A stretch of 64,000 nucleotides of DNA from Sporolactobacillus vineae DSM 21990 = SL153 (GTDB lineage Bacteria; Bacillota; Bacilli; Bacillales; Sporolactobacillaceae). The position numbers and the translations under genes are program-made. The first letter of the stretch is position 1. Each line of letters opens with the position of its first letter. Where the stretch lies: contig NZ_KB899042.1 in NCBI RefSeq assembly GCF_000377985.1, forward strand, positions 1 through 64,000. Reading direction: 5' to 3'. Shown here in pieces: positions 29,837 to 40,001 of the stretch. The notes below the pieces were generated by a model. That model made no database searches. It worked only from the letters and a program-made list of their open reading frames with translations, and was not told where the DNA came from.

Positions 29837-30729
29837 TCTGACTCTTCCCCCTTTAATTTATCCTGAAGCAGTTCGGCGATCACATTGGCGATGATTCTGC
29901 CGGCTGTTTTCGGTGCGACCAGTCCCGGCAGTCCCGGAACAAGCAGCGCTTTGATCCCGCGTTTTTTCGCATAACGAAAATCGGTGCCGCCGGGCTTCGA
30001 AGCGACGTCAACAATAAGACTGTCCGAGGGCATTCTGGATAGGACGCGGCTCGTCAGGACGAGCGCAGGTATCGTGTTGATACAAATCTCGTTATCCTGA
30101 ACTTCCTTTTCCAGTTCTTTCAGGTGAAATGCGGCCACACCCATCTCTGTTGCCCGGGCAATGTGTTCCGGTTCCCGGTCGCCGACCTTCACCTGTGCGC
30201 CAAGGGCATGAAACGCCCTGGCCAGACTCATGCCGGTTCTGCCGAGTCCGAGCACGATGATGCGTGCACGATGGATGGTGATGTCCGTATTCTGAATCAC
30301 GACCATAAGGGTCCCTTCCACTGTCGGGATCGAATTATAGATGGATACGTCGTCACGCTCAAAGAGACGGATCACTTGTCTTTTCGTTTCCTTGGTAAGT
30401 TGATTCAGGAATGCAGTTGCAATCCCCGAATAAATCACACAGTGTTCAGGAGTTTTTTCGACCCAGTCCCTGGTCAACCGGATCGTTCCATTAGAAAATG
30501 TGGTTTCGATCTGACCTTGATCGTCTGTACCGCTTACAGGCAGAATGAGACTGTCAATTTCTTCCGGATGCAGCTCATCCATTGCTACCTTGGCAGCACC
30601 ATTGAAGTTCCTGTCAAGCTGATCAAAGCCGACAAGCGAGATACGGGCATCCAGGCTAATCAATTTCTCAATCACCTGAATCTGCCGTGCATCGCCTCCC
30701 AGGACCACAATATGCCTGTTTGTCAGCAT
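29833..30729 (-). CDS. dpaA: Dipicolinate synthase subunit A
   Basis: DpaA (SpoVFA) is the NAD(P)-binding subunit of dipicolinate synthase. The 298-residue protein begins with a first nucleotide-binding-like region (VVLGGDARQIQVIEKL) and has a second, canonical Rossmann motif VLGLGRTGMSLARA near residue 160, then NTIPALVL, and DVASKPGG. GGAGG lies 10 bp before the ATG. It precedes dpaB in a two-gene operon. B. subtilis has ymxH between mlpA and dpaA; it is not present here. Confidence 0.96.
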   Translation of the reverse strand: MLTNRHIVVLGGDARQIQVIEKLISLDARISLVGFDQLDRNFNGAAKVAMDELHPEEIDSLILPVSGTDDQGQIETTFSNGTIRLTRDWVEKTPEHCVIYSGIATAFLNQLTKETKRQVIRLFERDDVSIYNSIPTVEGTLMVVIQNTDITIHRARIIVLGLGRTGMSLARAFHALGAQVKVGDREPEHIARATEMGVAAFHLKELEKEVQDNEICINTIPALVLTSRVLSRMPSDSLIVDVASKPGGTDFRYAKKRGIKALLVPGLPGLVAPKTAGRIIANVIAELLQDKLKGEESE

Positions 30730-30799
30730 CTGGCCTTAACCTCCGCATCAGCCGATCTCGGAACCTTTTCCGCATCAGCCGATAATTCATTCAATACTT

Positions 30800-30827
30800 T
30801 ATCGTATGACAAAAGCCTGCCGACGTG
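30800..30827 (-). promoter_or_regulatory. Sigma-K promoter of dpaAB
   Basis: On the minus strand CAC (30825-30827) is followed by 16 bp and CATACGATA (30800-30808). This matches the sigma-K consensus mACm-N16-17-CATAnnnTA. The start codon is about 70 bp downstream. Dipicolinate synthesis is a late mother-cell function, so the assignment fits. Confidence 0.75.
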
Positions 30828-30839
30828 AGAACGGCAGGC
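30811..30839 (-). terminator. Intrinsic terminator of mlpA
   Basis: Minus-strand perfect 8-bp stem GCCTGCCG / CGGCAGGC with a 9-base loop, followed by TTTTG. The -35 element of the dpaAB promoter sits in the loop. Confidence 0.75.
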
Positions 30840-30929
30840 ACACAAAAAGGGACCAGACAAAACCGGACCCCGTTTACACAAAAACATTAAGTTGACTATC
30901 GCACAAAGCGAAACAGATCGTGAAGGAAA

Positions 30930-32165
30930 TCAGATGGCTTCAGGCAGCCGGCCGGTCGGACTGACCACGGAACACGAATAAGGAGTATTGAATATCCGTT
31001 CGGCCGCTTTCTGCACCTCTTCAGGCGTCACCGCATCGATTCTGCGGATCATCTCGTCAACCGAGCGGTCGTGCCCCAGAATCAGTTCGTTCTTTGCATT
31101 CCGGCTCATCCGGCTGTTCGTACTCTCCAGGCCGAAAATCATACTTCCCTTGATCTGCGCCTTGCTGCTTTGCAGTTCCTCATCCGTAAGGCCTTCGTCA
31201 ACCATCGTATGAATCGTTTCGATCATTGTTTTTCCGAGTTCGCCAACCTTGTCTGCCGCCGTACCGCCGTAGACGGTCAGCAGACCGCTGTCTTTGAATG
31301 CCGTATGGAAGGAGAAAATCGAATAGGCCAGGCCGCGTTCCTCACGCACTTGCTGAAACAGCCGGCTGCTCATCCCGCCGCCCAGTGCATTGTTCATAAC
31401 GATCAGCGGAATGATTTCTTCATTATTACTGGATACACCTTCAAAGCCGAAACAGATATGTGCCTGCTCCGTTTCTTTCTTCCTGGCAATTTTTCCAGGA
31501 CTGAATGAAGGGGCGGGCTGGCGCTCTGCTCCTTCCGGCACCGTATATTGAGCGAATAGCGCATCGATCTCCGCAATAAAATCCTCACTGATATTTCCGG
31601 CGACCGAGACAACAATATTGTCCGGAGTATAGTGGGTGTGCATATGCTTTCTCAGATCATCCGGCTTAAAATCAGCCAGTGTCCGCTTTGTGCCCAGAAT
31701 CGGATACCCGAGCGGATGATGCGCGAAACTCGCCGAACTCAGTAAATCGTGCACCAGGTCATCCGGCGTGTCTTCGTACATTTTTATTTCTTCTCCGATC
31801 ACTTTTTTCTCTTTATCCATATCGGCGACATCAAAGCGAGAATGAAAGAACATATCGGCCAGAATGTTCAGTGCATAGGATGCATCCCGGTCCATAACCT
31901 TAGCATAATAGCACGTGCATTCTTTGGACGTAAACGCATTCACCTGTCCGCCGATGCGATCAAACGCTTCAGCGATCTGCTTGGCCGTCCGTGTCTTTGT
32001 GCCCTTGAACAGCATATGCTCAATAAAATGTGAGATCCCGTTATTGGCCGTATTTTCATAACGCGACCCTGTACCGACCCAGATTCCAAGACTGACGGAC
32101 CGGACGTAAGGTATTCTTTCAAGGAGAATACGGACGCCGTTGCCTGCGACATGTTTGATAACCAA
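30930..32165 (-). CDS. mlpA: M16-family zinc protease MlpA (YmxG)
   Basis: The 411-residue protein is an insulinase-like (pitrilysin, M16) metallopeptidase. The inverted zinc motif HxxEH is at residues 46-50 (HFIEHMLFKGT), with the downstream Glu in EEIKMYEDTPDD. A second M16 domain follows from about 180. No signal peptide is seen. The start is TTG with AGGGGGA 8 bp upstream. In B. subtilis the neighbours are ylxY and ymxH; both are missing here and an accessory island lies upstream. It has its own promoter and terminator. Confidence 0.93.
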   Translation of the reverse strand: MVIKHVAGNGVRILLERIPYVRSVSLGIWVGTGSRYENTANNGISHFIEHMLFKGTKTRTAKQIAEAFDRIGGQVNAFTSKECTCYYAKVMDRDASYALNILADMFFHSRFDVADMDKEKKVIGEEIKMYEDTPDDLVHDLLSSASFAHHPLGYPILGTKRTLADFKPDDLRKHMHTHYTPDNIVVSVAGNISEDFIAEIDALFAQYTVPEGAERQPAPSFSPGKIARKKETEQAHICFGFEGVSSNNEEIIPLIVMNNALGGGMSSRLFQQVREERGLAYSIFSFHTAFKDSGLLTVYGGTAADKVGELGKTMIETIHTMVDEGLTDEELQSSKAQIKGSMIFGLESTNSRMSRNAKNELILGHDRSVDEMIRRIDAVTPEEVQKAAERIFNTPYSCSVVSPTGRLPEAI

Positions 32166-32214
32166 AAATAAATCCCCCTGTGTCTCTATGAAACAATCAT
32201 TTAAATTACATTAT

Positions 32215-32243
32215 AATATAGCACGTAAAAAAATATGAGACAA
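32215..32243 (-). promoter_or_regulatory. mlpA promoter
   Basis: TTGTCT (32238-32243), 17-bp spacer, TATATT (32215-32220) on the minus strand, about 50 bp before the TTG start. Confidence 0.65.
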
Positions 32244-32274
32244 TGCAAGATTATTTTTGTGCGGGTGCCGGCAT

Positions 32275-32345
32275 GGAAAAAGCCGTCTTAGGGATCGGTC
32301 AAGTCTGACGCATTGATCCAGGTCATATCCCTTCGGCTGCTTTTG
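32275..32345 (-). terminator. Long hairpin, likely terminator of the ATPase-Fnr operon
   Basis: Two stacked stems, AGCCG / CGGCT and AGGGAT / ATCCCT, enclose a 31-base inner region. On the minus strand the structure is followed by TTTTTCC. It lies beyond the plus-strand ygbA-like gene, so minus-strand readthrough from the Fnr-like gene would cross that gene antisense before stopping here. The plus strand also has a T-rich flank, so a structured RNA is an alternative. Confidence 0.45.
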
Positions 32346-32354
32346 TTTTACGAT
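32313..32354 (+). promoter_or_regulatory. Fnr-like box and -10 before the ygbA-like gene
   Basis: TTGAT-CCAG-GTCAT (32313-32326) matches 8 of 10 bases of the Fnr core TTGAT-N4-ATCAA. A weak -10 TACGAT (32349-32354) lies such that a start site near 32361 would put the box at -41.5, the usual class II activator position. Assigned by eye. Confidence 0.4.
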
Positions 32355-32440
32355 ACAGTCAGATACGATTTACTCCCCGCGTTACGCCTGCATCCTATCG
32401 GCGCCGACACGGCATACTCTCATAAAAGAAGGAATGCACT

Positions 32441-32782
32441 TTGCCTAGGAAAATAAACGATGGCCCGGTGATCCGAGAAGAACAAGAAACCGTTGTGAAA
32501 ATGATCGGCATCTACTGCCGCAAGAAACACCGTCGTAAAGACTTGTGCGAAAGCTGCCGTGATCTGGAGCGTTACGCGCTGATGCGGCTTTCGTACTGCC
32601 CTTTCGGGGAGAACAAGGGCGCCTGTTCCAACTGCAAAGTCCATTGTTACCGGCCGGAATACCGGAGAAAAATAAAAACTGTGATGCGCTATTCCGGTAA
32701 GTGGATGCTGCTCTGCCATCCCATTTTTTCAATTACGCATTTAATGAAGAAAAAAAAGGCGATCACGACCCATCGGTCATAA
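32441..32782 (+). CDS. YgbA-type 'nitrous oxide-stimulated promoter' family protein
   Basis: The 113-residue protein matches the YgbA_NO family. Conserved features are IYCRKKH near residue 25, an array of Cys residues (CESCRDL, CPFGE, CSNCKVHCYRP) and the closing VMRYSGKWMLLCHP. The Cys set suggests metal or iron-sulfur binding. In E. coli ygbA belongs to the nitrosative-stress regulon, which suggests but does not prove a similar role. The start is TTG with AAGGA 8 bp upstream. It converges on the Crp/Fnr gene, overlapping its 3' end by 6 bp. Confidence 0.85.
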   Translation: MPRKINDGPVIREEQETVVKMIGIYCRKKHRRKDLCESCRDLERYALMRLSYCPFGENKGACSNCKVHCYRPEYRRKIKTVMRYSGKWMLLCHPIFSITHLMKKKKAITTHRS

Positions 32783-33436
32783 CCGCGTCATTTCTTCGAG
32801 TTTCTGAGGCTCACAGATCGTTATGCGACGCCATTTCCGTTGAATCAGCCCTTGTTCCTCAAGCTGGCGGAAGGTCCGGGACAGTGTTTCTGCGGTTGTC
32901 CCCAGAAATCCAGCAAGTTCTTTCATCTTGAGCGGCAACTGGAATGTGGCTCCGCTCTCCGTTTTATTTAAGTTGGTCAGATAAGTGGCCAGCCGTGACG
33001 CCACCGTTCCGAGCATCAATAAACGTGCCTGTTCTTCAATAGAAACGATTTTCGCAGCATTGCTTTCCAGCAGCTTGAGGCTCAATTGAGGATCGTCCTG
33101 CAGCAGCCGGACAAAATCCTGTCGCCGCAGAATGCAGGCTTTTGTTTCCTGTAAAGATTCGGCAAACAGATTGTTGTTTTCGGCGCCCAGCAGTGCCGCT
33201 TCACCTTCGTAGCTTCCGGGCCCGATGATACGCAGCAGCTGTTCTCTTCCTGAAGGTGACAGCTGATACACCTTCATTGATCCGCCTGCCACAATCACCA
33301 GTTGCGGCTCCCCGTCCGGACGGATGATCTGCTCGCCTTTATGGTAGGTGCGATCATAGATCCGGTTGTTAATCTTGTCCAGATCCCGATCTTCAAGATG
33401 GCTGAATAATGGTACCAGAGTGGCACAATGCTGCAT
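32777..33436 (-). CDS. Crp/Fnr-family transcription regulator
   Basis: From the ATG at 33436 (GGAGGTGAT 8 bp upstream, better than the in-frame GTG five codons earlier) the protein has 219 residues. There is an N-terminal cyclic-nucleotide-binding-like beta barrel (about 10-120), a dimerisation helix and a C-terminal Crp-type helix-turn-helix (about 165-200, MKELAGFLGTTAETLSRTF). Only one Cys (residue 4) lies near the N terminus, so it is not a classical four-Cys Fnr; it resembles Flp-like regulators of lactic acid bacteria. It is probably the regulator of the flanking island, where two Fnr-like boxes are seen. Confidence 0.9.
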   Translation of the reverse strand: MQHCATLVPLFSHLEDRDLDKINNRIYDRTYHKGEQIIRPDGEPQLVIVAGGSMKVYQLSPSGREQLLRIIGPGSYEGEAALLGAENNNLFAESLQETKACILRRQDFVRLLQDDPQLSLKLLESNAAKIVSIEEQARLLMLGTVASRLATYLTNLNKTESGATFQLPLKMKELAGFLGTTAETLSRTFRQLEEQGLIQRKWRRITICEPQKLEEMTRL

Positions 33437-33460
33437 CGCGATCACCTCCACTTCACGGAA

Positions 33461-33991
33461 CTAATCCTCTTCATCCGCCGCCGTTTCGAATTTTGTGCCG
33501 GTATACGCGTGAATCAGCCGGTTCTGGTGATTCATCCAGCCCTGAAGCCCGATCAGAAAATGCTGCAGCGGGAACGCTCCTTCTTGTTCCGCCAGTTTGA
33601 TCCCGCGAGTCAGAAAAAGAAGCTGTGTGTCAAAATCCTTCCCTGCAGCTTCCAGCATTGCCGGGGCAGATTCATACTTGAATTTTCCACTCTCTTCAAT
33701 CATAGAATAGCGGGTGAATTCAGCCGATGTTGTCGGAATCACTTCATGTTCATCTAACATCAATTCGGCCAGCCGGTCAAATTGCCGGTCTTCTTCCAGA
33801 GCCAGACCCTGAAAAAAGCGGCGGACCAACGGGCCCCTGTCTCCTGAAACAAAATATGCCCCCTGACTGAGCTTATTGCGATGTATCTTCAGGTTCGCTA
33901 ATATATGACCGACCATTGCTCCGGCCGTCGGGGTGTGATGATCTCTCTCACTCTGTGCCAGCTCTGTCTGATACTGTTCATCGATCGTCAT
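33461..33991 (-). CDS. Dps/ferritin-like protein
   Basis: The 176-residue, mostly helical protein has the spacing of Dps-type ferritins: a first helix with HILANLKIHRNKLSQGAYFVSG, then LEEDRQFDRLAELML and a C-terminal helix ending NHQNRLIHAY. Dps proteins store iron and protect DNA under oxidative stress. The usual ferroxidase signature (HxxHWxxxGxxFxxxHxxxxE) is poorly kept, so catalytic iron oxidation is uncertain. It sits between the Fnr-like regulator and the HMA chaperone in one minus-strand operon with gaps of 7-25 bp. Confidence 0.7.
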   Translation of the reverse strand: MTIDEQYQTELAQSERDHHTPTAGAMVGHILANLKIHRNKLSQGAYFVSGDRGPLVRRFFQGLALEEDRQFDRLAELMLDEHEVIPTTSAEFTRYSMIEESGKFKYESAPAMLEAAGKDFDTQLLFLTRGIKLAEQEGAFPLQHFLIGLQGWMNHQNRLIHAYTGTKFETAADEED

Positions 33992-33998
33992 CGTCCAT

Positions 33999-34226
33999 TC
34001 ACACTCCTTGTTTCATTTTGACAGACTGAACCGCAAAACCCAGCTTTTCAATAACAGCGGACAGTTCAGATGCTGTGACCTGGTCAGGATCAATGGTGGC
34101 CTTGACCTTGCTCGCATTAAACAGGACGCGCACGTCTTCGACCCCTTTTTGTTTCTTAAGCGCCGTGTCAATCTTCTGCATACATGAGGGACAGGTTAAT
34201 TCATCCAGTTGCATGATTATTTTCAT
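33999..34226 (-). CDS. Heavy-metal-associated (HMA) domain protein, CopZ-like
   Basis: The 75-residue protein is a single ferredoxin-like HMA domain with the metal site LTCPSCM (CxxC at residues 12-15). Such proteins carry Cu(I) or other soft metals to P1B ATPases. It lies 62 bp downstream of the ATPase gene, 7 bp before the Dps-like gene, and is probably the chaperone of that pump. The metal is not determined by the motif alone. Confidence 0.88.
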   Translation of the reverse strand: MKIIMQLDELTCPSCMQKIDTALKKQKGVEDVRVLFNASKVKATIDPDQVTASELSAVIEKLGFAVQSVKMKQGV

Positions 34227-34288
34227 TCTTTTCTCCTCCTTTTTAAATTAAGCATAAGTCCGTTCACATCCGGATAAATTGATCGTCA

Positions 34289-36193
34289 TCAAGTTCTTGC
34301 CGATTTCCGGAATCTTCCCGGCCGGTAGCCGAGCAGGCGCATCGCATTAGCTACAACGATCAGAATACTGAGCTCATGAATCAGCATTCCGCCGGCCATG
34401 TCAATCATTCCGGCAATGAGTCCGGCCAGCAGCAGCAGAACCGTAGCAAGTGCAATGCCAATGTTCTCTTTCATGTTTCCCACCGTCTTCCTCGTCAGCC
34501 CATAAGCATGCACCAATTCGGAAAAACGGGAACGCATCAGAACGAGGTCGGAGGTCTCCACAGCCACGTCTGTCCCATGACCCATAGCAATCCCAATCTC
34601 CGCCGCTGCGATCGACGGGCTGTCATTGATTCCGTCGCCGATAAACGCAACGTAATGACCGTCCTTTTTTAACTTTTCAACATAAGCAGCCTTATCTTCC
34701 GGGAGTAACCCGGCACGAATCTTATCAATCCCCGCCTGTTGTCCGATCGCTTCAGCCGTCTGCCGGTTGTCTCCGGTCAGCATGATCACCTGGCGAATCC
34801 CATGCTTGCGCAGCCAGGCCAGTGCTGAGGGAACATCGTCCCGAAGCCGGTCAGCCACGGCAAAAATACCAATTAGGCTGTCAGTTCCGGCAAAGAGAAC
34901 CGTCGAAACGCCTGCACGGCGCATCTGGTCCAGTTTGCGAAGCTGTGCCGCTTGCAGACGGATGCCTGCTCCCGTCACCAACTGCTCGCTTCCGATCAGA
35001 TAGATCCGGCCGTCCGCTTCCGCACGAATTCCTTTTCCCTTGATCACCATGGTTTTCCGGACTGCGACTGGGCGGAGCAAGGCTTTTTTCTCTGCATAAG
35101 CAACAATCGCCCGGCCCAGCGGATGATCAGACTCTTTTTCTATGGCTGCCGCAACAGCAAGAAGATCGTCAAAATCGTCACGATATGCAGCAACATCGGT
35201 CACTTCGGTCTTGCCGCGAGTGAGTGTTCCTGTCTTATCGAACACCAGCGTATCGACCCGGCTGAATTTGCTCATGATCTCGCCGCCTTTGATCAGTACA
35301 CCATGTTTTGCACCGTTTCCGATGCCGGCGACATTTGATACCGGAACGCCGATCACCAGTGCCCCCGGACATCCCAGCACCAAAAGCGTGACGGCCAGGC
35401 GCAGATCCCGCGTCCACAGCCAGACCGCCAGTGTGAGCAGCAGCACGATCGGCGTATACCCCCTGGAAAACCGGTCAATGAATCGTTCTGTATGCGACTT
35501 GCTGTCCTGGGCTTCTTCAACGAGTTCGATCATCTTACCGAACGTCGTATCCTCTCCGATCCGCTCGGCTTCAATGTGTAAGGTCCCGTTATCAAGAAAA
35601 GTACCCGCAAACACCATCTGCCCCGTTTCCTTCCTGACCGGCCGCGACTCGCCGGTGACACTGGCTTCATCAAGATAGCCGGAGCCGCTGATAATCCGGG
35701 CGTCCACCGGTACCTGAGCCCCCGTTTTCACGAGCAGATGATCTCTCTTCTGCACCTCATCGACGTCAACCTGAACCCATTGGTTGCCCTCCTTCCGCCA
35801 CGCTGTCGACGGGACCATTTCTGTCAGTTCTCTTACCGATTGTCTCGTCTTTGCCAATGCTTTACGTTCGAGGATGTTGCCGAACAGGAAGAGAAAAGTC
35901 ACGATCGCCGACTCGGCAGCCTCACCGATCAGAAATGCGGCGGTAACGGCAATGCTGATGAGCAGTTCGATACTGATCGTGTGTACTCTCAGCGCCTGAA
36001 CCGCGCTCAGAAAAACAGGCAGAAAACCAATCAGGGAAGCGATGCCGAGGCTCAAGAGATAGCCTGGCTGCCAGTGAAGCAAAAGAAGGCTCAGATAACC
36101 TGCGGCAATCCATCCCCCGCAGCTCCAGGTAATCGCCGCCAAATTGCGCTGCGTCCATTGAAGTAATTTCATCATTTTCTCACGCCCTTTCAT
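34289..36193 (-). CDS. P1B-type heavy-metal-transporting ATPase
   Basis: The product (634 residues from the ATG at 36193) has about six to eight transmembrane segments, the actuator TGES (about 180), phosphorylation motif DKTGT (Asp about 319), the P1B-specific HP pair in SDHPLG, and GDGINDSPS. The intramembrane metal motif reads CPG (Cys about 275, GCPGALVIG) rather than CPC, CPH or SPC, so the substrate cannot be assigned; company with a Dps-like protein and an HMA protein suggests iron or copper. No N-terminal HMA domain is present. An ATG at 36175 with AAAGGG upstream is an alternative start, and fits the predicted promoter better. First gene of a four-gene operon ending in the Fnr-like regulator. 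Confidence 0.9.
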   Translation of the reverse strand: MKGREKMMKLLQWTQRNLAAITWSCGGWIAAGYLSLLLLHWQPGYLLSLGIASLIGFLPVFLSAVQALRVHTISIELLISIAVTAAFLIGEAAESAIVTFLFLFGNILERKALAKTRQSVRELTEMVPSTAWRKEGNQWVQVDVDEVQKRDHLLVKTGAQVPVDARIISGSGYLDEASVTGESRPVRKETGQMVFAGTFLDNGTLHIEAERIGEDTTFGKMIELVEEAQDSKSHTERFIDRFSRGYTPIVLLLTLAVWLWTRDLRLAVTLLVLGCPGALVIGVPVSNVAGIGNGAKHGVLIKGGEIMSKFSRVDTLVFDKTGTLTRGKTEVTDVAAYRDDFDDLLAVAAAIEKESDHPLGRAIVAYAEKKALLRPVAVRKTMVIKGKGIRAEADGRIYLIGSEQLVTGAGIRLQAAQLRKLDQMRRAGVSTVLFAGTDSLIGIFAVADRLRDDVPSALAWLRKHGIRQVIMLTGDNRQTAEAIGQQAGIDKIRAGLLPEDKAAYVEKLKKDGHYVAFIGDGINDSPSIAAAEIGIAMGHGTDVAVETSDLVLMRSRFSELVHAYGLTRKTVGNMKENIGIALATVLLLLAGLIAGMIDMAGGMLIHELSILIVVANAMRLLGYRPGRFRKSART

Positions 36194-36205
36194 TTTGCTG
36201 CCCCT

Positions 36206-36247
36206 AGTGTAAGCCGGCACCGCAGCAAAAAAATTGACGGGCATCAA
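36206..36247 (-). promoter_or_regulatory. Fnr-like box and -10 of the ATPase operon
   Basis: On the minus strand TTGAT-GCCC-GTCAA (36234-36247) matches 9 of 10 bases of the Fnr core TTGAT-N4-ATCAA. A weak -10 TACACT (36206-36211) gives a start site near 36199 and places the box at -41.5. No -35 box is present, as expected for an activated promoter. Start at 36199 would favour translation from 36175. Confidence 0.5.
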
Positions 36248-36270
36248 GATGATCGAAAGTTTAACCGGGC

Positions 36271-36301
36271 GAAAAAAAAAGAACCGGCACAAAGCCGATT
36301 C
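36271..36301 (-). terminator. Intrinsic terminator of pnp
   Basis: Minus-strand stem GAATCGGC / GCCGGTTC (one G-U pair) followed by nine T. Confidence 0.9.
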
Positions 36302-36321
36302 CCGATGAACCGCAAACAGGA

Positions 36322-38454
36322 TTATTGCTGACGATCTGCCGATGCATTGTCCGGCAGCAGTGCTTTCCGGGATAATTTGATCCGGCCCTGCCGGTCGACA
36401 TTCAGCACTTTGACGCGCATTTTCTCTCCAGGTTTCACGATATCCTCAATACGATCTATTTTTTTATGATCCAGTTCCGAAATATGTACAAGTCCCTCTT
36501 TGTGGCCGAATAAGCGAACAAAGCAGCCGAAATTTTCAATTCTCGTGACCGTTCCGTTATAAATTTCACCGGTTTTGACTTCCCGAACCAGATCTTCGAT
36601 GATCCTTTTCGCCTGTTCGCCTTTATCTTCACTCACAGAAAAAATCATAATTGATCCGGTTTGCTGAATATCAATTTTCACACCGGTTTGTTCGATGATC
36701 TTGTTGATTACCCGTCCGTTTGAACCAATCACATCACGGATTCTGGACGGATCGATGGTCATTCGCAGAATTTTCGGGGCAAAAGCCGACAGGTGAGGAC
36801 GCGGCTCAGAAATGGCCGCCGACAGTGTCGCGAGAATCTTCAGTCTCCCTGCTCTTGCCTGTTCCAGCGCCTGCGATAAAATCTCACGAGTAACACCGCT
36901 TATTTTGATGTCCATCTGCAATGCGGTTACGCCCTTTTCTGTGCCCGCGCATTTAAAGTCCATATCGCCCAGCGCGTCTTCCATGCCCTGAATATCAGTC
37001 AGGATGACGATATCCTCGCCATGTTTCACGAGCCCCATGGCAATGCCGGCGACCGGTGCCTTGATCGGTACCCCGGCATCCATTAAAGCCAGTGTGCTGC
37101 CGCAGATGCTGGCCTGTGACGATGAACCGTTGGATTCGAGCACTTCGGAGACGCAGCGTATCGTGTAAGGAAAAGCTTCAGCAGACGGAATGACCGGCGC
37201 AAGAGCACGTTCGCCGAGCGCGCCGTGTCCGATTTCCCGGCGACCCGGTGATCGCGACGACCTGGTGTCCCCGGTACTGAAACCCGGAAAATTGTAATGA
37301 TGAATAAACCGTTTTGTATGCTCCGCGGAAAATCCGTCCATGATCTGTTCCTCACTGAGCGGCGCCAGTGTACAGGTACTGAGTGCCTGAGTCTGGCCGC
37401 GCGTAAACAGCCCTGACCCATGGACCCGCGGAAGCAGCCCGACGCGCGCAAAGAGCGGTCTGATTTCATCGATCCTGCGGCCATCCGGACGGCGATGCTC
37501 CCGAACAATCATTCGGCGTACTTCTTCCTTAAGCAGGTCATGCAATAATTCTTCGACGATTTCCGGATGCACAGCTGGCTCGCGATCCTGATACTCGGCG
37601 GCGATCTGAGTCATAACAGCATGATTGACTTCGCTGATCGCCGCATCCCGCGCCTTTTTCTCCTCAACCCGCATCGCCTGATTGAGCTTTTCTCCAGCCA
37701 GTTCACGTACCCGGGCCGCCAGTTCATCATCTGCTTTATAGATCGTTGGCGTCATTTTCTTCCTGCCAATTTCGGAGACGATCCTTTCTTCAAAAACGAT
37801 CAGTTTCCGGATTTGCTCCTGGGCGAACATTAATGCGTCCAGAATCACTTCCTCCTGGACCTGATCGGCGCCGGCTTCAACCATATTAATCGCATCTTTT
37901 GTTCCGGCAACGGTAAGATGCAGATCACTGACCCGTTCCTGAGCAAGCGTCGGATTCACAACGAATTGACCGTCAATTCGTCCGATGATGACGCCGGCAA
38001 CCGGGCCGCCGAACGGAATAGCCGATAGCGACAGGGCGAGTGATGAACCGATCATGGCAGCCATCTGTGCACTGCAGTCAAAATCAAGGCTCAGCACCAT
38101 ATTGTCGACCAGCACTTCATTTCTGAACCCTTCAGGAAACAGCGGGCGGAGCGGGCGATCAATCAGCCGGGCCGAGAGCGTTGCCTGATCAGCGGGACGG
38201 CCCTCCCGTTTCAGATATCCGCCCGGCAGCTTGCCGACAGCGTAGGAACGTTCCTCAAAGTTTACCGTCAACGGAAAAAACGAACTGTCCTTAGGTTGTT
38301 TCGATGCTGTTGCTGTCGACAGCACTACCGTATCGCCATAATAAACCAGAGCGGCTCCGTCAGCCTGTTTGGCCACTTCGCCGCATTCGATACGGAGCGG
38401 ACGTCCGGCCCAGTCCAGTGTATATACCGATTTCTTCTGCTGCTCCGATTCCAT
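36322..38454 (-). CDS. pnp: Polyribonucleotide nucleotidyltransferase
   Basis: PNPase is the 3'-5' phosphorolytic exoribonuclease of mRNA decay. From the ATG at 38454 the protein has 710 residues, with two RNase PH-like domains (about 15-215 and 320-545). The second holds the catalytic segment [19 protein letters not shown] domain follows ([11 protein letters not shown], with GSNG in place of the usual GKGG), then an S1 domain (about 625-695). AAGGAGGTG lies about 13 bp before the start; the open frame reaches 14 codons further without homology. Downstream of rpsO as in B. subtilis. Confidence 0.96.
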
Positions 38455-38537
38455 TCCTCTGAGGCACCTCCTTTCTCTCGATCCATACAATGGCAAAATA
38501 GATCATCCGATACCGAATCATCTAAAATCCGGCTAAC

Positions 38538-38560
38538 AAAAAAGCGGGAATGCTCCCGCT
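38538..38560 (-). terminator. Intrinsic terminator of rpsO
   Basis: Minus-strand stem AGCGGGA / TCCCGCT, loop GCAT, then six T. It may act as a partial terminator before pnp. Confidence 0.85.
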
Positions 38561-38576
38561 CTTTTTCAATCCCTTG

Positions 38577-38846
38577 TTATCGGCGCAGACCCAATTTATC
38601 GATCAGCACGCGATATCTTTTGACATCTTTACCGCGCAGATAAGTCAGCAAATTACGGCGCTTACCAACCATCTTCAACAGACCGCGGCGAGAATGAAAA
38701 TCCTTCTTATGCACCTTCAGATGTTCGTTAAGCGTGTTGATCTGTTCGCTAAGTACGGCAATCTGTACTTCCGGTGAACCGGTATCGTTCTCATGTGTCT
38801 GAAAATCGTGAATCAGCTGAGTCTTCTTGTCTTTCGTTAAAGCCAT
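38577..38846 (-). CDS. rpsO: 30S ribosomal protein S15
   Basis: S15 binds the central domain of 16S rRNA and nucleates the platform. The 89-residue protein is typical throughout: [38 protein letters not shown] and [27 protein letters not shown] precedes the ATG. A promoter overlapping the 3' end of ribF gives a leader of about 100 nt; S15 autoregulates through its leader in several bacteria, but I did not identify a binding fold. Confidence 0.98.
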
Positions 38847-38953
38847 CAGCTTTCACCTCCCTTTTTAAAATCCCCGCAAGCTCCGCTGCCGCCGGTGATA
38901 CGGCCAGCCGGGCAAGGGTTCCTAATAACCGGCATAAAGCCAATTATGATTTA

Positions 38954-38982
38954 ATTTTATATGTTTCTTCCGAATTAATCAA
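38954..38982 (-). promoter_or_regulatory. rpsO promoter
   Basis: TTGATT (38977-38982), 17-bp spacer, TAAAAT (38954-38959) on the minus strand. The -35 box overlaps the last codons of ribF. Confidence 0.65.
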
Positions 38983-39949
38983 GTGATTTTTTCTCATCCG
39001 AATCGTGCAGTGAACGGAAATAAGCCTCAGTATTCACTTTATCCTTATCCATTTGCTGAATTAAAGCTTCCGATCCGGAGAATTTTATTTCCTCACGAAG
39101 CCGTTTATACCAGTCAACGGATACCTGCTTGTCGTACAGATCCCCTGAGAAATTCAATACATAGACTTCAACGGTGGTTTTTGCATCAGGCTGCCGGTAA
39201 AATGTCGGACGTGTCCCGATACTGCAGATACCGTCCAGCGACCGGCCGTCGACATTCAGGCGGACCGCATAGACACCGTTTGCCGGCATGACAAAAACCT
39301 GCTCCGATGCGACATTGGCTGTCGGAAAGCCGAGTGTTCTGCCCCGTTCGTCGCCATGAACCACTTTTCCGGTGATCCGGTAAGGACGTCCCAGCAGTTC
39401 GGCTGCCTCGTCGACGGCTCCTTCATGGATGCGTTCACGGATATGCGTCGTGCTGACTTTCTCCCCGAAACGTTCGACTTTAGGGACGACCGTGTAGCTG
39501 AACATGCTGCGCGAAAACTGATCGATGTTCTTCATGTTCCCTTCAGCTTTCCTGCCGAAGGTGAAGTCATAGCCGGCAACAATATGTTTTGCATGAAATT
39601 TGATCAGGTATTGATCGATAAATTCCTGCGGAGACAGCTGACTGAGCGCCAGATCAAAGTGGATAAAAATCAGCAGATCCACACCCATTTTCTCAATGAT
39701 CTCAGTTTTAAGTTCCGGCGGCGTCAGACTGTCTTCCCGCTTTTTAGACGGACTGAGCACGACAGACGGATGCGGATAAAAAGTCATTACGGCAGATTCG
39801 AGATTTTTTTCAGCGGCAATTTTCACGGCTTGTTCAATGACATCGCGATGGCCGAGATGAAGTCCGTCAAAATAGCCGAGTGCAATCACTTTCTCATTGC
39901 TGTCCTTATCTTCGATGTACGGCTTGTGGTCTAAATAAATCGTTTCCAA
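38975..39949 (-). CDS. ribF: Bifunctional riboflavin kinase / FAD synthetase
   Basis: RibF (RibC in B. subtilis) converts riboflavin to FMN and FAD. The N-terminal adenylyltransferase domain has GYFDGLHLGHRDVI and the later HIRERIHEGAVD; the C-terminal kinase domain (about 180-310) has GERGRTLGFPTANV and CSIGTRPTF. Length (324) is normal. The start is TTG with AAGGTG 5 bp upstream. It follows truB by 52 bp. Confidence 0.95.
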   Translation of the reverse strand: METIYLDHKPYIEDKDSNEKVIALGYFDGLHLGHRDVIEQAVKIAAEKNLESAVMTFYPHPSVVLSPSKKREDSLTPPELKTEIIEKMGVDLLIFIHFDLALSQLSPQEFIDQYLIKFHAKHIVAGYDFTFGRKAEGNMKNIDQFSRSMFSYTVVPKVERFGEKVSTTHIRERIHEGAVDEAAELLGRPYRITGKVVHGDERGRTLGFPTANVASEQVFVMPANGVYAVRLNVDGRSLDGICSIGTRPTFYRQPDAKTTVEVYVLNFSGDLYDKQVSVDWYKRLREEIKFSGSEALIQQMDKDKVNTEAYFRSLHDSDEKKSLD

Positions 39950-40001
39950 TTCGGCACCTTCTCACTCTCTGACACTGACAAAATGGCAACAACACATCTG
40001 G

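Follow-up and report, generated by a model that had tools for sequence, protein, structure and literature searches.

The 64,000 nucleotides (nt) of DNA analysed here (the window: positions 1 to 64,000, forward strand, of contig NZ_KB899042.1) come from the genome of Sporolactobacillus vineae DSM 21990, which comprises 2.86 Mb in 45 contigs, and carry between mlpA and pnp an island that we read, with considerable though not full confidence, as a self-regulated metal-export module of the FLP/FlpA type, whose regulator would activate three class II promoters upon a redox, nitric oxide (NO) or iron cue. Four genes of the interval lie on the minus strand, and a fifth, on the plus strand, is convergent with these. 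The minus-strand genes encode a P1B-type ATPase with CPG in M4 and HELS in M6 (34289-~36175; TIGR01525, 1.5e-165), the start codon of which is uncertain (ATG at 36175, 36172 or 36193), an HMA metallochaperone-like protein with a TCPSC motif (33999-34226; PF00403, 1.6e-11), a Dps-like protein of the Lactococcus lactis DpsA/DpsB type with its ferroxidase histidines replaced (33461-33991; PF00210, 5.1e-9), and an FLP-like Crp/Fnr regulator (32777-33436, with the ATG at 33436 and a GTG at 33451 also possible) with Cys4, Cys101 and the recognition helix TTAETLSR. The plus-strand gene, with a TTG start, belongs to the YgbA_NO family (32441-32782; PF11756, 1.4e-37), scoring 128.8 bits against a cut-off of 25 in the profile search and exceeding the cut-off of NF007714 as well.

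Three Fnr-type boxes accompany these genes: TTGATCCAGGTCAT upstream of YgbA (32313-32326, plus strand), TTGATGCCCGTCAA upstream of the ATPase gene (36234-36247, minus strand) and a perfect internal box, TTGATGACGATCAA (34279-34292, minus strand), which overlaps the ATPase stop codon and would belong to the promoter of an HMA-Dps-regulator unit. On the same strand as each box, and exactly 22 nt past it, stands a TA...T hexamer (TACGAT at 32349-32354, TACACT at 36206-36211 and TATGCT at 34251-34256, respectively), and each box is therefore centred at -41.5 from the start predicted from its -10. These -10 hexamers are weak, matching at 4 of 6 positions. A preliminary description of this DNA had placed two boxes at -41.5, those before the ATPase and YgbA genes, and both are real; the best of the three, the perfect one before HMA, Dps and the regulator, had been overlooked.

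The box alone was rejected as evidence, the window holding 55 box sites at up to two mismatches, not above its shuffles (45 ± 6.7, with 7 of 100 shuffles reaching 55), and the genome 209 at up to one mismatch; a reversed-pattern control (21 sites) was set aside, as stop-codon-like words were thought to bias it. In the genome-wide motif search that the preliminary description had proposed, lone boxes were frequent and boxes with a -10 at 22 nt rare: the composite TTGAYN4RTCAW-N22-TANNNT occurs at five sites in the 2.86 Mb, three of them inside the 4-kb island, the fourth adjoining another Crp/Fnr gene and the fifth followed by 1.5 kb without an 80-codon reading frame. Here, as in the genus, module and 398-genome scans below, the composite and strict patterns were derived from the boxes and are not independent of the source genomes, and because the composite was written after the boxes were seen, relatives are the better test.

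Within the genus, the ATPase was found in seven genomes (that of the window and six at 62-63% identity) and the regulator in six (that of the window and five at 54-60%), and boxes precede ATPase and HMA in the stretches read. The regulator of genomes G006 and G014 lies elsewhere, with a box of its own, and their ATPase, HMA and YgbA genes (the last ~8 kb away) are still boxed; boxes are likewise retained in distant families, although gene order differs there. In a hand list of 26 boxes, which omits the near-identical HMA copy of G006 and CRP copy of G014 and other weak (two-mismatch) hits upstream of the same genes, TANNNT stands at exactly +22 in all 26. Judged by eye, the combination of RTCAA, a TTT immediately behind it and a -10 at +22 occurs only at the promoters of this system, with 15 sites in seven of the 15 genus genomes and none in the other eight.

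A wider neighbourhood survey, which had also been proposed, found the module with its boxes to recur across Bacilli and plasmids. Of 62 regulator-positive genomes, 38 were sampled, taken best-scoring first and then spread over families, in addition to G000 and G004, and boxes were collected by rule from 65 stretches of the window genome, other Bacilli and plasmids, of which 44 hold the regulator with ATPase or HMA, 16 the regulator alone and five no regulator. These gave 77 unique boxes at distances of up to 220 nt before an ATPase, HMA, Dps or regulator gene. TANNNT follows at +22 in 72 of them and at +21 in another one, and the offset next in frequency after +22 has 17. At least one box was present in 41 of the 44 stretches with regulator and ATPase or HMA, against 5 of the 16 with the regulator alone. 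The 72 box promoters have no conserved -35 (mean of at most 2.2 of 6 matches), only four have an extended -10, and 57 have a T-rich stretch after the box (at least three T in five). Since the 22-nt spacing is fixed, a conserved -35 is lacking and extended -10s are few, the box promoters have, as predicted from these features, the architecture of class II activation.

Scanned with a stricter pattern, 398 Bacilli genomes yielded sites in 25 of the 62 that have the regulator (E <= 1e-25) and in 8 of the 336 that lack it (Fisher p = 3e-16, hand-tallied from two lists and uncorrected for kinship); at most seven candidates were scored per genome, so that regulator-positive genomes number at least 62. 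Of the 42 sites, a hand count places 25 at module genes, spread over 18 of the 62 regulator genomes and two of the eight others (L263, L272). Among 32 genomes selected mainly for having the module, 22 showed a strict site, and 29 of the 32 sites found lie within the module. Three related genomes (L267, L268, L269), each with a relative of the regulator, carry a strict site (box at 1501, sense strand) whose downstream reading frame spans at least 455 codons and has a helix-turn-helix (HTH)-like start.

Eight of nine plasmid stretches, from Lactococcus, Staphylococcus, Enterococcus, Listeria, Leuconostoc and Ligilactobacillus, carry regulator, HMA and Dps genes (seven with the ATPase in view) along with promoters in which box and -10 are 22 nt apart, or 21 in one case. 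On the Listeria plasmid pLM58 (L191 1405-8462) the row reads cupin, FetAB-type iron export genes, Dps, regulator, HMA and ATPase, the last four each boxed with a -10 at 22 nt. A box with its -10 at 22 nt on an E. faecium plasmid (L189 4942-4955) points at nrdI and adjoins a 41.5% identical regulator without a nearby ATPase or HMA, and an E. faecalis plasmid (L195 2168-8344) carries an ATPase-HMA-Dps-regulator set upstream of an IS6 transposase and predicted streptomycin resistance genes.

The regulator combines a cNMP-binding domain (PF00027, 7.1e-15) with a Crp-type HTH (PF13545, 3.1e-20). The preliminary description had seen one cysteine near its N terminus; Cys4 stands, and a second invariant cysteine, Cys101, had escaped notice. 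Every one of the 46 module regulators has both (44 module stretches plus L047/L048, many rows of the alignment being closely related), and among 14 wider relatives Cys4 occurs in 13 and Cys101 in all. The cysteines of L. casei FLP are Cys5 and Cys102. The window regulator has one further cysteine, Cys208, which is not conserved, and with cysteines only at 4, 101 and 208 the four-Cys FNR type (a 4Fe-4S oxygen sensor) is excluded; FNR proper requires four cluster-holding cysteines, and Gram-positive FNR-like proteins such as L. casei FLP and L. lactis FlpA often have two (covered parts of PMC5039431). The recognition helix of all 46 module regulators has Glu181 and Arg185 (CRP numbering) and no Arg180, Arg occurring at position 180 in 6 of the 14 wider relatives, and the 180/181 residue pair correlates with TTGAC-N4-GTCAA sites in the covered part of Rodionov et al. 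(PMC1274295). From the two-Cys pattern, the domains and the Fnr-type helix we call the regulator FLP-like; its best 25 plasmid relatives are all from Lactococcus and 47-49% identical. It had been named as the candidate activator, and geometry, helix type and the conservation of boxes with the module support that choice, so that control by the island's own regulator appears well supported at the sequence level. A perfect TTGATCTCGATCAA box (G000:C3:164955-164968; L057 6956-6969) lies on the other strand, 82 nt ahead of a second Crp/Fnr gene, and is probably the own site of that gene's product, a protein of 228 aa with the helix PETVSR.

YgbA was found in 4 of the 15 genus genomes. All three Sporolactobacillus genomes with both YgbA and the regulator have a YgbA box with a -10 at 22 nt, TTGATCCCTGTCAT occupying the corresponding place in G006 and G014, and the fourth, G012, has other Crp/Fnr proteins, no regulator of this type and no YgbA box. 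Given this pattern, and the lack of a box at 18 YgbA loci of other Bacilli genomes, recruitment of YgbA into the regulon seems confined to the Sporolactobacillus lineage, and the YgbA box was rejected as an ancient trait. Sporolactobacillus sp. THM7-4 (L046 6455-6556) retains a broken YgbA remnant, the C-terminal part only, convergent with the regulator, as if YgbA had been lost there. Module-type promoters also stand before a 97-aa protein (L257 1501-1908) partly similar to the iron-sulfur (Fe-S) repair proteins RIC/ScdA (TIGR03652, 2.8e-11, far under the model cut-off) and before flavodoxin genes in L240 and L264, of one genus (box at 1501, sense strand; profile run on L240 only). Taken together, the YgbA, Fe-S-repair-like and flavodoxin promoters tilt the balance towards a signal arising from redox or NO damage, and single sites before Fe-S-repair-like or flavodoxin genes may be chance. 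Thiol redox is favoured by the two invariant cysteines of the regulator, and NO by YgbA and, in one other genome, the Fe-S-repair-like gene.

The window Dps matches L. lactis DpsA (1zs3, 1.9e-29) and 1zuj (1.1e-27), which we take to be DpsB. In the alignment both of its ferroxidase histidines are replaced and the Asp and Glu kept, at positions that are presumably the intersubunit ferroxidase residues of Dps; all four are retained in the module Dps of Listeria and Enterococcus, and the residues are intact in the Dps of 6 of 8 plasmid modules. Because both histidines are lost, iron storage by the window Dps is doubtful and DNA protection would be the likelier role, and the metal storage put forward in the preliminary description becomes doubtful with it. 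The HMA protein has CP[ST]C in 45 of 45 aligned sequences. For the ATPase, the nearest solved relative overall is ZntA (1.7e-97), and the best match of the C-terminal helices is 7qbz, which we take to be sCoaT, a PIB-4 pump. PIB-4 pumps are described as having SPC in M4 and HEGxT in M6 (covered part of PMC8880997). The ATPase frames have CPGALVI in 44 of 46 (some partial), with CPG rather than SPC in M4 of the window ATPase, and HE.S in M6 in 46 of 46, HELSI in the window ATPase, where the PIB-4 motif is HEGxT. Judged by motif, the CPG/HExS ATPases would be a distinct P1B subgroup. FetAB-type iron-export genes adjoin the module on the Listeria plasmid, and fetB does so on an Enterococcus plasmid. 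The exported metal would be divalent, most likely Fe(II) and possibly Zn(II), the hints for iron being the PIB-4-like M6 of the ATPase, the Dps and the FetB/FetAB neighbours on plasmids.

In the mechanism that we propose, the two-Cys Crp/Fnr regulator would bind TTGAY-N4-RTCAA and bring RNA polymerase to three promoters of class II, in which the box at -41.5 takes the place of a -35, and would thereby drive the ATPase, the HMA-Dps-regulator unit (as positive autoregulation) and, in this lineage, YgbA. Its active form would be set by the thiol state of Cys4 and Cys101, or by NO or iron at these residues. A divalent metal that the stress releases or renders toxic could then be exported by the HMA protein and the CPG-type ATPase, Dps would shield DNA, and YgbA might aid recovery from NO damage. 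The metal (iron or zinc) and the signal (thiol redox or NO) are the parts that we infer.

We regard it as unlikely that activation is really the work of another Crp/Fnr protein (the 228-aa one encoded at G000:C3, or a different one at C2), with the island gene a bystander or acting elsewhere. The genome does hold at least two other Crp/Fnr proteins, so that cross-binding is possible, and the C3 protein has an Fnr-type helix and a perfect box alongside its gene; in addition, genome G007 has the ATPase and its box with no island-type regulator or Dps found, its contig ending just behind the ATPase. This reading has to face, however, the confinement of the RTCAA-TTT composite to this system's promoters across the genus, the unboxed YgbA of G012 despite its other Crp/Fnr proteins, and the position of the boxes next to this regulator's gene across Bacilli, plasmids included. 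Even less probable is repression, in which boxes overlapping the -35 region would keep polymerase out until the regulator is released by metal or redox stress: Crp/Fnr repressors exist, and boxes at -48 to -35 could obstruct polymerase, but there is no conserved -35 to repress, the window -10s are weak, and a blocking site would have no need of a spacing fixed at 22 nt.

A zinc (or copper) homeostasis module in place of an iron/redox one, with YgbA incidental, is rather unlikely but deserves more weight than either of these. It would fit the overall proximity of the ATPase to ZntA, the CPSC motif of the HMA protein and the L. lactis work on FlpA and FlpB, which reportedly tied them to zinc and not iron, and relatives are annotated as copper chaperone and copper ATPase in the covered part of PMC5663981. 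Against it, CPG stands in place of CPC, HExS is nearer to PIB-4 pumps than to ZntA or CopA, FetAB and Dps are neighbours, and a two-Cys Fnr-type regulator is not the usual zinc or copper sensor. That zinc tie, G007 and the additional Crp/Fnr proteins also count against a self-regulated iron or redox module, as do several further observations. Strict sites outside module genes make up 17 of the 42 in the 398 genomes, some before genes and others without an evident gene, and 10 of the 32 genomes of the module-centred sample showed none. Of the three boxes, the one before YgbA is the weakest, with a TCAT end and no T tract; no such box was found at the 18 YgbA loci of other Bacilli (which include one below the family cut-off and one fragment), although 11 of these genomes hold a relative of the regulator. 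No box precedes FetAB in the L191 stretch read, and FetAB was rejected as a box target. Furthermore, no effect was visible for the C129S substitution in Streptococcus suis FlpS, a result that makes a general thiol switch less likely, and an Fe-S cluster is described for FlpA (both in the covered parts of PMC5039431); a thiol switch is therefore not assured. A broader reading we hold only tentatively: a widespread FLP regulon of Bacilli, plasmid-borne as well, with a separate CPG/HExS P1B subgroup and a dedicated HMA carrier, might couple thiol-redox or NO stress to iron efflux, lineages independently adding genes for NO or Fe-S damage (YgbA in Sporolactobacillus, a protein resembling Fe-S repair factors in a second family and flavodoxin in a further one).

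As to its setting, the island had been described as five genes between mlpA and pnp at the place of B. subtilis ylxY; the genes are as described, and the ylxY comparison needs correction. In 12 of the 14 other genus genomes mlpA follows pnp at less than ~0.5 kb, which leaves no room for ylxY (of the remaining two, one has a different gene between pnp and mlpA and the other a contig end), so that an insertion in the S. vineae DSM 21990 genome is the simplest account of the island. A compositional outlier was considered and rejected, the GC content of 47-56% being similar to the flanks; no direct repeats of at least 16 nt, as terminal repeats of an insertion, were reported, and no RNA element was found within 30000-40000. 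A candidate terminator lies at the end of the regulator gene (32759-32786, minus strand) and a terminator-like hairpin between pnp and the ATPase box (36279-36303, minus strand), both by consensus match only.

With a promoter rule this sharp (TTGAY-N4-RTCAA, 22 nt, TANNNT), probable targets of regulators of this class can be listed from sequence, and FLP-type sensing and the metal of the module therefore become directly testable. YgbA gains a regulatory context outside enterobacteria, and the 'copper' labels on such plasmid genes of food bacteria may err on the metal and say nothing on control. Enterobacterial ygbA is a member of the NsrR regulon (ygbA, ytfE, hmp, hcp); YgbA is stress-regulated there and would be so here, by a different regulator family, and the NsrR regulon is without a metal exporter. 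From PIB-4 ATPases (7qbz; FrvA type), which share the M6 His-Glu and the best C-terminal match, the island's ATPase differs in CPG for SPC and HExS for HEGxT. Plasmid ATPase-HMA-Dps-Crp/Fnr modules are alike in regulator, HMA, Dps and 22-nt promoters; they differ in variable gene order, in the intact ferroxidase residues of most of their Dps and in having no YgbA annotated in the stretches shown, and the covered part of the plasmid table lists module genes singly (PMC5663981). The preliminary description had not seen the joining of metal export and storage to nitrosative or redox stress described. That was only partly right, as DpsA/DpsB-type Dps are solved and the FlpA regulon of Lactobacillales is already filed under metal homeostasis in RegPrecise, with no YgbA in the parts of that paper covered (PMC3616900); what stands is that for YgbA under an FLP-type regulator, the three-promoter layout, the CPG ATPase subgroup and the module as a unit no description was found in open-licence papers. 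FLP of L. casei and FlpA/FlpB of L. lactis resemble the island's regulator, by traits, in the Crp/Fnr fold, two conserved cysteines only and an Fnr-type helix. L. lactis Dps and flp genes share operons, and a Dps of the DpsA/DpsB type lies in the same operon here, to which this island adds an ATPase, YgbA and three predicted class II promoters. The module is a lineage variant of the known FLP-type metal module.

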